DNA of 47,682 nt from Candidatus Kryptoniota bacterium (GTDB lineage Bacteria; Bacteroidota; Ignavibacteria; Kryptoniales; JAKASW01). The translations under genes and the position numbers were made by a program. This document shows, in pieces, positions 1,310 through 8,042 of this stretch (the stretch's first letter is position 1; each line of letters starts with the position of its first letter). Location of the stretch: positions 1 to 47,682 of the forward strand of contig JAHECO010000030.1 in NCBI GenBank assembly GCA_024641705.1, read 5' to 3'. A model generated the notes under the pieces. It did not search any database and was not told where the DNA came from. It saw only the letters and a list, made by a program, of their open reading frames with translations.

Positions 1310-2224
1310 ATGCTTCGCAAGAGCACGATAGAACGGCCGTTATTTTACTCGATAATTCTGAACGGCCTCATTGCAGTTACGGAACTCGTCGGTGGTTTAT
1401 TCTCAAACAGCCTCGCACTTATTTCGGACGCGCTGCACAACTTCAGCGACTTCATCGCGCTGACAATAAGTTTCGTAGCGGCAAGAATGATGCACTGGGG
1501 AAACAACGAAAAGAAATCGTACGGCTATTTCAGGGTGGAGATTCTTGCCGCATTCATCAACGCGGTGGCGCTTGTGCTTATCGGAGTCTATATAATGTAC
1601 GAGGCGCTTTCCCGGCTTTCGTCGCCAGAGACGATACACGTTGGCCTGATGGTGACGATCGCCGCCATCGGGTTCGGAGCCAATGTCCTTTCGGTCTTGC
1701 TCCTTCATCCGCACAGAAACGAGAGCCTGAATGCCAAGAGCGCTTTTCTCCACCTCATGACAGACGTCCTCGAGTCGGCGGCAGTAATAGTAACCGCCCT
1801 CCTCATCTCGATATTCGGATTTCATATCCTCGATGCGGTCATCTCTATCGCAATCGGTCTTCTCATCATAAAGAGCTCGTGGGACCTCCTCCTCGAATCT
1901 GTAAACATACTCACCGAGGGCTCGCCCAAAGGAATAAACCTCAAAGAGGTCGCGGATTTCATACGCGGCTTCCCGGGCGTGAAGGGAGTCCACCATCTTC
2001 ACATCTGGAGCCTCTCCACGAATTTCAAGGCGCTCTCCGCCCACATCGTCGTCGACGACATGCAGCTCAGCGGGACGGCCGAAATCACAAACGAACTGGA
2101 TGGCCAGCTCTCGGACAGGTTCGGCATCGACCACCCAACCTTTCAGCTCGAAGCGGACCCGTGTGAGGAAACTCTCATCTCCCAGTACCGCGACAGAAAC
2201 TCACCGGGCAAAAGAGAAAGATGA
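1310..2224 (+). CDS. Cation diffusion facilitator (CDF) family divalent metal exporter
   Basis: Proton-coupled efflux of Zn2+ (possibly Cd2+, Co2+ or Fe2+) across the inner membrane. At 304 aa it has the normal CDF plan: six hydrophobic segments followed by a cytoplasmic ferredoxin-like C-terminal domain (about 210-300, with GVKGVHHLHIWSLS). The tetrahedral metal site is visible as D40/H43/D47 in the second segment and H148/D152 in the fifth, the HD-HD pattern typical of zinc exporters of the CzcD/ZnT type. The gene overlaps the next one by four bases (ATGA at 2221-2224), so the two are probably translationally coupled, although no functional link is obvious. Substrate choice is inferred. Confidence 0.92.
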   Translation: MLRKSTIERPLFYSIILNGLIAVTELVGGLFSNSLALISDALHNFSDFIALTISFVAARMMHWGNNEKKSYGYFRVEILAAFINAVALVLIGVYIMYEALSRLSSPETIHVGLMVTIAAIGFGANVLSVLLLHPHRNESLNAKSAFLHLMTDVLESAAVIVTALLISIFGFHILDAVISIAIGLLIIKSSWDLLLESVNILTEGSPKGINLKEVADFIRGFPGVKGVHHLHIWSLSTNFKALSAHIVVDDMQLSGTAEITNELDGQLSDRFGIDHPTFQLEADPCEETLISQYRDRNSPGKRER

Positions 2225-5121
2225 GCCATGATCCGCGGAAAATCGGAAACGATTTAAGGCAAAGGGTCTCGGGGGAAGTACTCTTCGACGACATTTCCAG
2301 GTCTCTCTTCGGTACGGCGGCATGCATGTATAGGGTGAAGCCGCTCGGCGTCGTCGTACCGAGAAACACCGGCGACGTCGTCGAGACCGTACGTTACTGC
2401 GGCGAACGCGGAATTCCGATAACAGGCCGCGGGGCAGGTTCGAGCCTCGCCGGACAATCGCTCGGCAGCGGCGTCGTAATCGTCTTCAACAAGTACTTCA
2501 GGAAGATTCTTGCCGCCGACCGGGAATCGCGGACGGTGACAGCAGAGCCCGGAGTTGTCCTGAGCGACCTCAACAACACCCTTCTCCCGCAAGGGTTGAT
2601 GTTCGGGCCCGACCCGTCGAGCGGGAAGCAATGCGTGATAGGTGGAATGATCGGCACGAACGCCGCCGGCGCGCATACCGTAAAGTACGGCGCGACAAAA
2701 GACAACCTGGCCGGCCTGAAGGTGGTAACAGCCGACGGCAATTTGATCGACCTGTCCCACGGCTCGGCAAGGGACGCGGAAAACAAAATCGCGAACCTCC
2801 TCGGGCCTCATCGGGAAACAATATCGAAGCGATGGCCTCGCTCCTCCAAGAATTCCTGCGGCTATAATCTTGCCGGAACAATCGACGGGGAAAGTGTCGA
2901 CCTGACGAAACTCTTCTGCGGAAGCGAGGGAACGCTTGGCCTGACTGTCGAGGCGACGCTGAAACTTGTCCCCACGCCCAGAGAGCGGCGGAACCTTATA
3001 GCGTATTTCCCATCCTACGAATCTTGCGCCGCGGCTGCACAAGAGGCTCTGCAATTTCGACCGGCCGCAGTCGAGATGCTCGACAAGAGCTTCGCCTCCG
3101 CAGCCATTGGACTCGACCCGCAGATCGACCAGCTGCTTGGAGAGAATTTCGTTTCAATCTTGATATTCGAATTCGAAGAGGAAGAAGCGGGACTCGGCGA
3201 CGACAAGATCGCCAGGCTTGCGGACCATCTTCAGAGATTGCACCTCCCAAGCAAACAGATTCTTCCCCGCGATCAGGCCGAAGCGGCAAAGCTGTGGCAG
3301 GTCCGCAGAGAAGCGTCCGCGATTTTCTACAAAATAGAAAAGCCCGGCAAGAAGACATCGTTCGTGGAAGATGCGGCTGTCCCCGTCGACAGGTTGTCGG
3401 AGTATCTCGCGGGTGCACGGAAGATTTTTGACAACCACGGCGTCAGCTACGCCCTTTACGGGCACGCCGGGAGCGGGAATACTCACGCCATCGTGCTTCT
3501 CGATCTGAGAGGCAAGGACCACCTCAGAAAAATCGACCCGATCGCCGGCGAGATCTACGACCTGGCTATCTCACTGGGAGGCACGCTCAGTGGAGAACAC
3601 GGCGACGGCTTCCTGAGGACACCGTTCCTGTCCAGGCTTTATGGAGAAGAAATATATTCCCTGTTCAGGGAAGTCAAGAAAGTATTCGACCCTAACGGGA
3701 TACTGAACCCCGGCAAGATAGTCGGCGAACAGGGCATCTCGATCGCACACGATTTACGGTACGGTGAATCGTATCGACGAGTCGACACCGGGACTTCGCT
3801 CGATCAGGAAGCGATAGCGCACGAGATTGAGAAATGCCACGGATGCGGCACGTGTCTCAGCTATTGTCCGACCGCGATGGTTACCTTCGACGAACGGGCG
3901 ACCCCCCGCGCAAAAGGAAACATCCTTCGCTCTGTCATCAACGGCGACCTCGATGCCGGATACCTTGCCGACAAAGAGTTCAAGGAGGTCCTCGACTATT
4001 GCTTCAACTGCAAGCTCTGCCTCACCGAATGTCCGACTCAGATCGATATCCCCGGGATCGTGGTCGAGGCGAAAACGGTTTATCTTGAGAAGACCGAATC
4101 GACGCGACAGGATAGGTTCATCAACAGGCTCCCGGCACTCTCCGCGATTGGATCGATAACGCCGACAGTTGCCAACATTGCGGCAAACCTTTCGATTCTG
4201 CGGAAGCCGATGGAGAAGCTTTTCGGCATCGACAGCCGTCGGAAACTCCCGAAATTCCATAAGCCTCTTTACAAACGGGTGAGAGTCAACAGGAAAGTCC
4301 CGGATGCACAGAGAAAGGCGATCTACTTTTCAGGGTGTTTCGCAAATTTCAACGACCCGTCCGGCGAGGGACTCTCCACGATTGAAATTCTGCGGCGGAA
4401 CGATGTCGATGTGCGGGTGCTCGACAGCCTGAGATGCTGCGGCATCGCCAAGATAACGACGGGAAACAGGGATGCCGCTGCCGAAGATGCCGCTTGGAAC
4501 GTCGCCGAGCTGGCGAATTACGTCAGGCAGGGTTTCGACATAATTGCTTCCGCGCCGAGCTGCGGCCTGGCGCTCAAAGAAGATTATCCCGGAATCGTCG
4601 GGAGCGAGGACGCCCGCCTTGTCTCCGAACATATACTCGACCTTTCCGATTATCTCGGGAGGCTGGCGGATGAAGGAAAGCTCAACGTCAAATTCGGCGA
4701 GCTAAAGAAGCGCGTGACATATCACAACGCGTGTCATTCGATACCCATGAACGTGGTCAGACAGCCGGTAAGGCTTATGAGGCTCGTCCCGGGACTCGAC
4801 GTGGTTGAGCTCCCCGAAGACACGTGCTGCGGAATGGCAGGAACATTCGGTTTAAAAAAGCAGTTTTATGATCTGTCTATGATGACAGGGGCAAATCTGT
4901 TCGAACACATAAAGTCGCTGCATGTCGATTCGGTTGTCACCACTTGCGGCACATGCAACATGCAGATCTCCCAGGGAGCGGGACAGAAAGTCGAGCATCT
5001 CGCGAAAATACTGTGCGATTCGTACCGCGCGTACGACAAATTGGGGGCACCCCAGGTGCCACGGGAGATTAATAAGAGAGAAGAGGACCTTGCCACCGGA
5101 AGTGTAGAGATGATAGAGTGA
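2221..5121 (+). CDS. FAD-linked oxidase / Fe-S / CCG-domain fusion dehydrogenase (GlcD-GlcF type)
   Basis: Membrane-associated 2-hydroxyacid dehydrogenase of the D-lactate/D-2-hydroxyglutarate type, like YdiJ or GlcD fused to GlcF. Order of parts in 966 aa: FAD-binding type 4 domain (about 40-260, with GRGAGSSLAGQ near 69), FAD-oxidase C-terminal domain (about 260-510, with SGEHGDG), a two-cluster 4Fe-4S segment (CHGCGTCLSYC near 539 and CFNCKLCLTEC at 594-604, each followed by CP), then two cysteine-rich CCG domains (LRCCG near 738, CCGMAGTFG near 868). All expected cysteines are present. Electrons would flow from substrate through FAD and Fe-S to quinone or another carrier. The start at 2221 overlaps the CDF stop codon. 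The natural substrate is not decided by the sequence. Confidence 0.93.
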   Translation: MSHDPRKIGNDLRQRVSGEVLFDDISRSLFGTAACMYRVKPLGVVVPRNTGDVVETVRYCGERGIPITGRGAGSSLAGQSLGSGVVIVFNKYFRKILAADRESRTVTAEPGVVLSDLNNTLLPQGLMFGPDPSSGKQCVIGGMIGTNAAGAHTVKYGATKDNLAGLKVVTADGNLIDLSHGSARDAENKIANLLGPHRETISKRWPRSSKNSCGYNLAGTIDGESVDLTKLFCGSEGTLGLTVEATLKLVPTPRERRNLIAYFPSYESCAAAAQEALQFRPAAVEMLDKSFASAAIGLDPQIDQLLGENFVSILIFEFEEEEAGLGDDKIARLADHLQRLHLPSKQILPRDQAEAAKLWQVRREASAIFYKIEKPGKKTSFVEDAAVPVDRLSEYLAGARKIFDNHGVSYALYGHAGSGNTHAIVLLDLRGKDHLRKIDPIAGEIYDLAISLGGTLSGEHGDGFLRTPFLSRLYGEEIYSLFREVKKVFDPNGILNPGKIVGEQGISIAHDLRYGESYRRVDTGTSLDQEAIAHEIEKCHGCGTCLSYCPTAMVTFDERATPRAKGNILRSVINGDLDAGYLADKEFKEVLDYCFNCKLCLTECPTQIDIPGIVVEAKTVYLEKTESTRQDRFINRLPALSAIGSITPTVANIAANLSILRKPMEKLFGIDSRRKLPKFHKPLYKRVRVNRKVPDAQRKAIYFSGCFANFNDPSGEGLSTIEILRRNDVDVRVLDSLRCCGIAKITTGNRDAAAEDAAWNVAELANYVRQGFDIIASAPSCGLALKEDYPGIVGSEDARLVSEHILDLSDYLGRLADEGKLNVKFGELKKRVTYHNACHSIPMNVVRQPVRLMRLVPGLDVVELPEDTCCGMAGTFGLKKQFYDLSMMTGANLFEHIKSLHVDSVVTTCGTCNMQISQGAGQKVEHLAKILCDSYRAYDKLGAPQVPREINKREEDLATGSVEMIE

Positions 5122-5272: not shown

Positions 5273-5533
5273 GTGAATACCGAAGATCATCCGGATAATC
5301 CACACCATACGCTTTATGTCACGAGACCCAACGGGACGACCGGCCCAAGCGGCAGGATTGTCTTCATTATAGGAGTGGCGTGCGGTTCGGCGACATCTGC
5401 GGCAACATATGCTTCCCACGGCCGGGTAGGTGTCTGCTCACTCGGGTTATTTGAGGCAGTAGCGGCAGTGGTCTTCTGGCTGCTTGAACAGGTGGGCTTC
5501 AGTTTCTCCTTACCCCGTCGGATTCGATCTTGA
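5273..5533 (+). CDS. Possible small membrane protein, unrecognised
   Basis: An 86-codon frame opening with GTG at 5273, preceded by AAAGGAAA at suitable spacing. The translation has two hydrophobic stretches (about 29-47 and 56-75) that could span the membrane, and no family that I recognise. It overlaps the 3' end of the convergent chemoreceptor gene by 35 bases and follows directly on a dispersed repeat. The ribosome-binding site and hydrophobicity favour a real gene; the overlap and lack of family favour chance. It is one of the few candidate genes in the 377-base gap between 5121 and 5499. Confidence 0.28.
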
Positions 5534-8042
5534 ACTGCGCTGTCGACGACTGGATTTCATCGGCAAGGTCGGCGAGCCCCGATGCGATCTGACCGACCTC
5601 CTCAGCCTCACGGGTAGCTTTGACCGTGTTCTCGGATATACCGTTTATCGTCTCGGCGTTGGCCTTGCTGATCGAGGCCACGTTGTTGATCATCTCCACC
5701 GTGTGCTTCACACTCGAGCTCAGTTCCTCCGTCGCGCTCATGTTCTGATCGACGACTGCTGAAATCTTTTCTATCGACTTTAGCAGCCCGGACATTATCT
5801 TAACGACCGCATTGTTGGCGGCAGCCATGACGTCGACCTGCTTGTTCATATTTTCCGAGGAGGAGAGGAGCTTGTTTATCGCGTCTCCGGACTCGGTGGC
5901 CAACTTGGTCCCTTCCCTGACCTTTTCGACGATTGCCCCGACCGACTTGCTCGCGCCTTCGATGTCTTCCTGAACTCTGTTGATCAGCGCGGAGGTCTCT
6001 TTCGTCGCGGCGGCAGATCGTTCGGCAAGACTTCTGACTTCGTCCGCGACCACCGCGAATCCCCGCCCGTGTTCGCCTGCTCTCGCCGCCTCGATCGCGG
6101 CATTCAGTGCCAGGAGGTTCGTTTGTTCGGCTATTTGTTCGATGTTCTCGATAATTCCTTCTATCTGCTCGGACTGTTTGGCCATCCCCTCTATCTTCGA
6201 GGCAAATGCCGCGACAGTTTCTTCGATCTTCTTCATCTGCTCGAGGTTCTGCATCACCGCCGCTGCCCCAAGCTTCGATATTCTTATCGCGTCTGCGGAA
6301 GCAGAGACGACATTGTGGGCACCGGCACTCGCCGAATCGATTGCCCTGGATATTTCGTCTGCGGAAGTGGATACATTTTCCACGGCAAGTTTCTGGTCAT
6401 GGGAATCCATGGCAATGGTATTGATTGCCGCGGAAATCTGCTCCATGTTGGCATTCGCGTTGCTTATGGACAGCGCCTCCTCGTTCAGGCTCTTCGCCAT
6501 TTGCTGTATGGTTTCCGAGTTATAGCTCGACGCCTCGACCGACTGCTGCGCCGTGCCGGCCAAATCGCGGCTGAGGCCTAGGAGCCTCTTCGATCTCCTT
6601 ACCAACGCCCCGAAAATTCCGCGGAGGCTCAACGGCTCGCTGTTGAAAGTCGAGACCACTATTCCGCGGTCCACAGCCTTGTTGATGTAAGGGACCAGGT
6701 TCTTGTCGAAAATGCCCACGCTTATCGCGTCGTACTTTTTCGCGATGCAGTCGTCTACCGCCGGACCGTAGATTTCCGCGCTGACGTTGATGATCCCGTT
6801 GACGAACTGTCCCTTCGGAACTACCCAGTCGACGCTTCCGTTGAAGCTCATCAGTTCCGATGCGGCCGCGTCGACTCCGGCTCTGAAGGCTGTCCAGAAC
6901 CGGTCGCCGTCCCTGCCGAGGACTGCGATCCGGATCGGCCTGTCGGACCCCTTCGCGGGTTTCAGCCGTCTTGACGCCATGGCCTCCGTTTCTATTACTC
7001 CCCTGCCGGGTTGCCAGAACTGCGCATAATTCTCCCCGGTGACGAGGTCCATGTTCGTCAGGAGCCTCGTCTGCTGCGGCTCCCACCCGGCGACTATGTG
7101 ATTGAACATTCCGATGACGGGGTCGTGCCCCTGCGCGAACACATCCTGCGACAGTGTCGCGGTGATCACACTATCCTTCACGTACTTCATCGTCTCGTCT
7201 GCAAGGTCATGGCAGACCACCTTCACCGTCCCGGTCTTGCCGGCGTCTACGACGGCCTTCGCGGCAGCAGCGCCGCCATAGGTCACATAAATGCCCGCGA
7301 GGTCGCGATGCTTTTCCATGAGCGACGTTGCCGCGTTGTACGTCAGCTCGAAGTTCAGGTTTGTCTCGACCATCTCGGCGACGGAGATAGACGGGTACTT
7401 CTCGCGCAGCACATTTTGAAATCCCTTCCGCCTCAGATCGTGGCCGATTATGTTGAACTTTTCCAGAAGGATAACGACCTTCCCTCTGCCGTTGAGCGCC
7501 TTACCCATCGCCTCCCCGCAGGCCTGTCCCTCGAGATACGAATCCGCGCCGACATAAATGAACCGCTGACACGGCTTGTCCGTCGCGGAGTTGAATTCCT
7601 TGCTTGCGTCGTTCAGGTGTTCGATTATCGAGTTTAGCCCGCGTACCATCTCTCCTACCTGCCCGTTGACAGATGTACTGATCGCACCGGCTTCCAGGCG
7701 TATCCGCGACGTGAGATTCCCCTGTGCCATCTCGGTCATCGCAGCGGACAACGACGTGAAATCCTTCTCCGCCATCTGCTTCACCCTTCCCGAGAGAAAT
7801 TTCACCGGCCTGTAGAGAGTCGCCATGATCAACGCCGTCATTGCCCCGATCACCGCGAGGGTTCCGAAAATGCCGGTGACGAGAAGCTGCCTCGTGCTCG
7901 CTAATGCACCCGGATCGGAAGCCGGGTTTATTCCTGCAAGCCGGAGGTAACCGTCGATCTCGAGCCCGATGAAGAAAAGGATTAAGATAACTCCCAGTTG
8001 GAGGGAGTATTTCCTGAGTAACTTCCCTGTTCCTTTGAGCAT
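5499..8042 (-). CDS. Methyl-accepting chemotaxis protein with lobe-swapped sugar-binding-protein-like domain
   Basis: Chemoreceptor of 847 aa. Order: membrane segments at about 15-33 and 54-76 with only some 20 residues between them, HAMP (about 77-130), a periplasmic-binding-protein-like region (about 159-470), then the coiled-coil MCP signalling domain (about 490-847) with hairpin tip [19 protein letters not shown] near 639. With the N-terminus inside, everything after residue 77 lies in the cytoplasm, so the binding-protein-like part faces the cytosol. Its two halves are in reverse order: residues 159-345 resemble the C-terminal lobe of RbsB-type proteins ([15 protein letters not shown], then GKVVIL, then TATLSQD) and 368-470 resemble the N-terminal lobe ([13 protein letters not shown], then [11 protein letters not shown], then [11 protein letters not shown]). 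It probably couples an internal ligand to CheA. No other chemotaxis gene is in the window. Confidence 0.92.

Follow-up and report, generated by a model that had tools for sequence, protein, structure and literature searches.

Type I periplasmic binding protein (PBP) domains work in the cytosol as part of the LacI/GalR regulators, and chemoreceptors are dimers. How a helical stalk receives the lobe closure of a binding domain is difficult to examine wherever both chain ends leave a single lobe, or where docking of a separate binding protein is involved. A natural circularly permuted PBP is TpMglB-2 (Tp0684) of Treponema pallidum, for which the designation "Type Ic / Cluster Bc" was proposed (PMC4990184). 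This protein is cut between strands 3 and 4 of the N-lobe, with N19 near the N-terminus as the equivalent of N91, and, in its permuted form, remains able to bind glucose and to undergo a change in shape (PMC4990184). Besides, the split halves of the RBP of Thermotoga maritima reassemble and bind ribose with a K_D of 6.8 uM (PMC10601554), and permuted halves of this RBP tend towards dimers with swapped elements (PMC9815098). Here, a gene from a Candidatus Kryptoniota bacterium is compared with these systems. The window denotes the whole analyzed stretch of 47,682 nucleotides.

Domain Architecture and Membrane Topology

The features of the gene are compiled in Table 1. A preliminary description, made from the letters of the window, had placed the sensor domain of an 847-aa chemoreceptor at 6633-7568, which was confirmed by residues 159-470 mapping to 7568-6633 on the minus strand. 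In the Pfam scan, the signalling domain matched MCPsignal (PF00015) with an E-value of 7.7e-39 and 133.7 bits (cut-off 34.6), and the tip of the MCP hairpin was found to be conserved in the orthologue alignment ([34 protein letters not shown]). A strict ten-residue methylation-site pattern occurred three times in the Leptolinea protein introduced below and not at all in the window protein. No DNA-binding domain was detected in the 847-aa receptor by the Pfam scan.

Table 1. Parts of the receptor gene and their positions in the window.
Feature	Position	Strand	Basis
Entire gene, encoding a transmembrane chemoreceptor (MCP) of 847 aa whose type I PBP domain is circularly permuted	5499-8042	minus	ORF call and translation; MCPsignal and Peripla_BP_4 matches; same-genus and Leptolinea orthologues
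Residues 1-77: membrane anchor, two helices and outer loop of ~20 aa	7812-8042	minus	Kyte-Doolittle segments ~8-36 and 54-80; basic N-terminus; 34% mean orthologue identity
Residues 78-154: HAMP-like segment, last helix running into the PBP domain	7581-7811	minus	Pfam HAMP, residues 97-144; helix 128-152 in a low-confidence part of the model
Residues 159-345: PBP C-lobe with natural C-terminal part of the PBP, in first place	7008-7568	minus	PF13407 profile 95-244; 2h3h residues 91-294
Residues 346-369: new linker from natural C-terminus to natural N-terminus	6936-7007	minus	Between the two Pfam matches; low model confidence
Residues 370-470: PBP N-lobe (natural N-terminal part), in second place, FNSEP end at the hinge	6633-6935	minus	PF13407 profile 6-89; 2h3h residues 2-90
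Residues 471-847: coiled-coil stalk and signalling hairpin, immediately after the hinge	5502-6632	minus	PF00015, residues 602-763; modelled helix from ~473

In each of the ten homologues, hydropathy analysis placed two hydrophobic segments ahead of residue 80, and the stretch from residue 91 to 480 contained none, in agreement with the earlier proposal of two membrane segments, both preceding HAMP, and a domain facing the cytosol. The HAMP assignment itself was retained in a weakened form, as a HAMP-like segment is present and its match of 15.5 bits lies under the Pfam cut-off of 25. Since no membrane helix follows this segment and the MCP hairpin must be cytosolic, the PBP domain is assigned to the cytosol. 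A periplasmic location was rejected, as no third membrane helix was found by hydropathy. The N-terminal membrane region contains no cysteine that could serve as a lipobox, unlike what would be expected of a lipid-anchored export protein.

Lobe Order and Position of the Cut

When scanned separately, residues 159-345 (E 3.4e-26) and residues 368-470 (E 5.8e-9) matched PF13407 (Peripla_BP_4) at profile positions 95-244 and 6-89, respectively. A chance match was therefore dropped as an explanation, each half matching the family alone. The C-terminal part of the profile thus stands before the N-terminal one, which is the reversed lobe order suggested earlier, and this order is kept in the orthologues. 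Likewise, half-domain profiles built from ten homologues and searched against solved structures aligned independently to the glucose-binding protein of T. maritima (2h3h), the first half over residues 91-294 and the second over residues 2-90. Together, both halves cover 2h3h exactly once, with neither gap nor overlap, which corresponds to a whole PBP with a single opening where the chain first crosses the hinge. The junctions proposed at the hinge accordingly correspond to the crossover from N-lobe to C-lobe at the boundary of 2h3h residues 90/91. Moreover, a profile re-ordered into the natural sequence of lobes outscored the native-order profile in each of the 34 ordinary PBP frames available, compared by the best single-domain score per frame (e.g., 99.6 vs. 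48.2 bits). Judged from these profiles, the putative sensor is a PBP domain of the CUT2 glucose-binding type, with the first crossover of the hinge as the site of its circular permutation. The initial classification as RbsB-type was refined with regard to the nearest relative: in the solved-structure searches of both halves, RbsB was displaced by the T. maritima glucose-binding protein, and AraP of Geobacillus stearothermophilus is closer as well.

Structure prediction was applied to single chains. The domain model (residues 146-495) reached a mean pLDDT of 72.8 and a pTM of 0.61, and a longer model (residues 80-545) a mean pLDDT of 62.0 and a pTM of 0.52. Both feature two well-predicted alpha/beta lobes, with low confidence for their packing, for the linkers, and for the junctions to the stalk, and in the longer model a helix begins at ~residue 473 as the start of the stalk. 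Hence, the structural check suggested in the preliminary description supported the two lobes and only in part their assembly into one domain; neither the absence of a bilobed fold nor a position outside the membrane, both of which would speak against the description, was observed. In Foldseek searches, the first model aligned to most of the listed PBPs over 133-153 columns and to a few over ~200-260, and matched the permuted TpMglB-2 (5jx2, 6bgc, 6bgd) end to end over 358-391 columns, with a query TM of 0.47-0.54 and an rmsd of 7.6-8.2. For the first half, VIA-align gave Z-scores up to 23.4 (rmsd 3.5, 173 aligned; 3g1w).

Predicted Binding Site

In Escherichia coli MglB, glucose is contacted by ten positions, namely D14, F16, N91, H152, D154, R158, W183, N211, D236, and N256 (PMC4990184). 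According to the alignment, D14, F16, N91, R158, and D236 are identical to D380, F382, N467, R204, and D279 of the receptor, and N256 corresponds to Q299, with Gln occurring here as in TpMglB-2. Six of the ten positions are thus kept as predicted contacts, one of them with Gln for Asn, and they fit a fold with one cleft, since they stem from both pieces of the domain. All six are present in the nine sequences of the genus and five of them also in the Leptolinea protein, in which D380 is replaced; R204, D279, Q299, F382, and N467 are invariant in all ten homologues. The contacts H152, D154, W183, and N211 are changed in all homologues, and several invariant residues lie outside the mapped MglB contacts. 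Because these four contacts are missing, sugar binding may be lost or altered. The ligand would be a small polar molecule, with a sugar or sugar-like metabolite as the probable class.

Distribution, Conservation, and Genome Context

Seven further genomes sampled from the same genus encode the protein. Scanning named genomes yielded four loci, all in MAGs labeled "Bacteroidetes bacterium", three of which were sequences already found. The same-genus set comprises eight distinct sequences besides the window, which are 63-79% identical to the window protein and keep the lobe order. Across 395 genomes of the phylum, this genus was the only one in which the permuted domain was found in full length, the remaining matches being frames of 319-384 aa that cover only the first part of the model, like ordinary PBPs. 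A search of 72,556 plasmid records revealed one further protein of the same order, hrd7_33420 of Leptolinea sp. HRD-7 (Chloroflexota; 840 aa), which matches 99% of the permuted domain as one piece with ~35-36% identity and features its own MCP hairpin. It is located on a 212-kb plasmid (AP024711.1, L066:7566-10088) and annotated as hypothetical despite a clear MCP signalling domain. No match was obtained in the scan of viral contigs. The homologues of identical order that the preliminary description called for hence exist within and outside the genus. With a copy in Chloroflexota, the architecture is either old or was transferred between phyla.

Mean pairwise identity among the nine genus sequences amounts to 34% in the membrane part, 68% in the HAMP-like part, 68% and 67% in the two PBP pieces, 66-70% in the stalk, and 86% in the hairpin region. 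The PBP halves are thus as conserved as the stalk, which does not apply to the membrane part, and a pN/pS of 0.14-0.16 in both lobes indicates strong purifying selection. Accordingly, the membrane part seems to be no more than an anchor, with the cytosolic PBP as the putative sensor. In the genome, the CheA domain H-kinase_dim and the flagellin N-terminal domain were each matched twice above the cut-off.

Neither a transporter nor a sugar operon was found among the genes beside the receptor gene. A functional link to the neighbors was rejected, as the neighborhood is common only to close relatives and not conserved around distant orthologues. Immediately upstream of one orthologue, L012:437-2974 (plus strand) encodes a protein of 846 aa that features a SpoIIE phosphatase domain and is absent beside the other orthologues examined. 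Additionally, the window encodes a 966-aa protein (2221-5121, plus strand) in which FAD-linked oxidase, 4Fe-4S, and cysteine-rich CCG domains are fused.

Proposed Mechanism and Alternative Explanations

The data are best explained by a membrane-anchored chemoreceptor whose internal sensor for a small polar ligand is a hinge-permuted CUT2 PBP and in which lobe closure switches the CheA-controlling hairpin, a reading to which a probability of roughly 0.7 is assigned. It accounts jointly for the permuted order, the cut site, the topology obtained by hydropathy, the conservation, and the CheA and flagellin genes, and would comprise one bilobed fold per chain, ligand binding by a molecule of the class named above, and hinge-driven signalling. 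The linker of ~24 residues connects the natural ends of the PBP, and the hinge carries the new ones; the HAMP-like helix enters the C-lobe and the N-lobe exits into the signalling stalk. As the lobes would be arranged in series within the signalling path, closure of the cleft on a cytosolic ligand would be expected to displace the entering helix relative to the leaving one and to switch the CheA-controlling hairpin. This closure step is plausible, since reassembling RBP halves (PMC10601554) and glucose binding by TpMglB-2 (PMC4990184) are known; the former likewise suggests that a chain break between the lobes is tolerable (PMC10601554). That an internal metabolite is sensed by the receptor is what we infer from this arrangement, which suggests a direct conversion of its binding into a swimming signal. 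Points against this reading are the moderate confidence of the models, the four MglB contacts that are missing, and a gene neighborhood free of transporters and sugar operons.

Several other explanations have to be weighed against this reading. The window's genome is fragmented (95 contigs), which could have caused ordinary PBP fragments to be joined in the wrong order by assembly or annotation; such an error is excluded for practical purposes, because an open frame runs through the domain in the same order in seven other genomes of the genus as well as in the complete Leptolinea plasmid record. The halves could further be derived from two different PBPs, and their scores across ordinary PBPs are indeed uncorrelated (Spearman 0.18, p 0.61), but the top solved relatives common to both halves speak against such a chimera.

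The main rival is a domain-swapped sensor, in which the clefts of a homodimer are formed by the C-lobe of one chain and the N-lobe of the other, and the ligand alters the geometry of the dimer. The dimeric nature of chemoreceptors, the connection of the halves by only the short linker, and a lobe packing that is not fixed by the models are all compatible with it, as are the reassembly of separate RBP halves (PMC10601554) and the proneness of permuted ones to dimerize and swap elements (PMC9815098). The sequence gives no call for such an exchange, however, and it is considered unlikely. Slightly less probable still is a PBP domain that has lost small-ligand binding and acts within the stalk as a structural element or as a docking site for proteins. 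The four MglB contacts changed throughout, including the N211 position, and the invariant residues outside the mapped contacts would agree with this, but the six contacts kept in the genus, five of them also in Leptolinea, and the strong purifying selection on both lobes speak against it.

Returning to the hinge-permuted sensor, the chances appear even that it represents a distinct receptor class of at least two phyla, in which a hinge-opened PBP with its lobes in series in the stalk reads a cytosolic metabolite and ligand closure acts as the mechanical switch. With new chain ends at the hinge and a domain in line with the stalk, a natural arrangement of this kind would be the counterpart of the permuted binding proteins made by sensor designers and would offer a simple test of hinge-to-stalk coupling. 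It would also mean that chemoreceptors use sugar-type binding proteins for sensing within the cell.

Comparison with Known Systems

The T. maritima glucose-binding protein (2h3h, 2qvc, 3c6q) and other CUT2 proteins are among the best relatives of both halves, but are of natural order and exported as free binding proteins. With LacI/GalR regulators, the receptor shares a type I PBP domain in the cytosol; it differs in being permuted, in the absence of a DNA-binding domain by Pfam, and in an output through a chemotaxis hairpin. Canonical MCPs such as Tar and Tsr likewise feature two membrane helices, a HAMP-like segment, and the MCP signalling hairpin, whereas the receptor has only the short loop instead of an outer ligand domain and carries its cytosolic sensor between the HAMP-like segment and the hairpin. 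No earlier report of a permuted PBP inside a chemoreceptor was found in the open-licence literature. Permuted type I PBPs as such are known from TpMglB-2, with another cut and a location outside the cytoplasm.

Besides, PDB 5er3 (Rhodopirellula baltica) looks like another natural permutant, with a cut inside the C-lobe: in its 341-residue chain, residues 276-331 correspond to the beginning of the C-lobe, while profile positions further on (76-266) match residues 32-221.

TpMglB-2 and the receptor domain are both permuted type I sugar-binding proteins with joined natural termini and have several sugar-contact residues in common. Nevertheless, TpMglB-2 is located outside the cytoplasm, where it belongs to an ABC transporter as its lipoprotein, and is no MCP, whereas the receptor domain follows two membrane helices and precedes the signalling hairpin. 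Unlike in TpMglB-2, the N-terminal part of the N-lobe is placed wholly at the end of the domain in the receptor, including N467 as the equivalent of N91.
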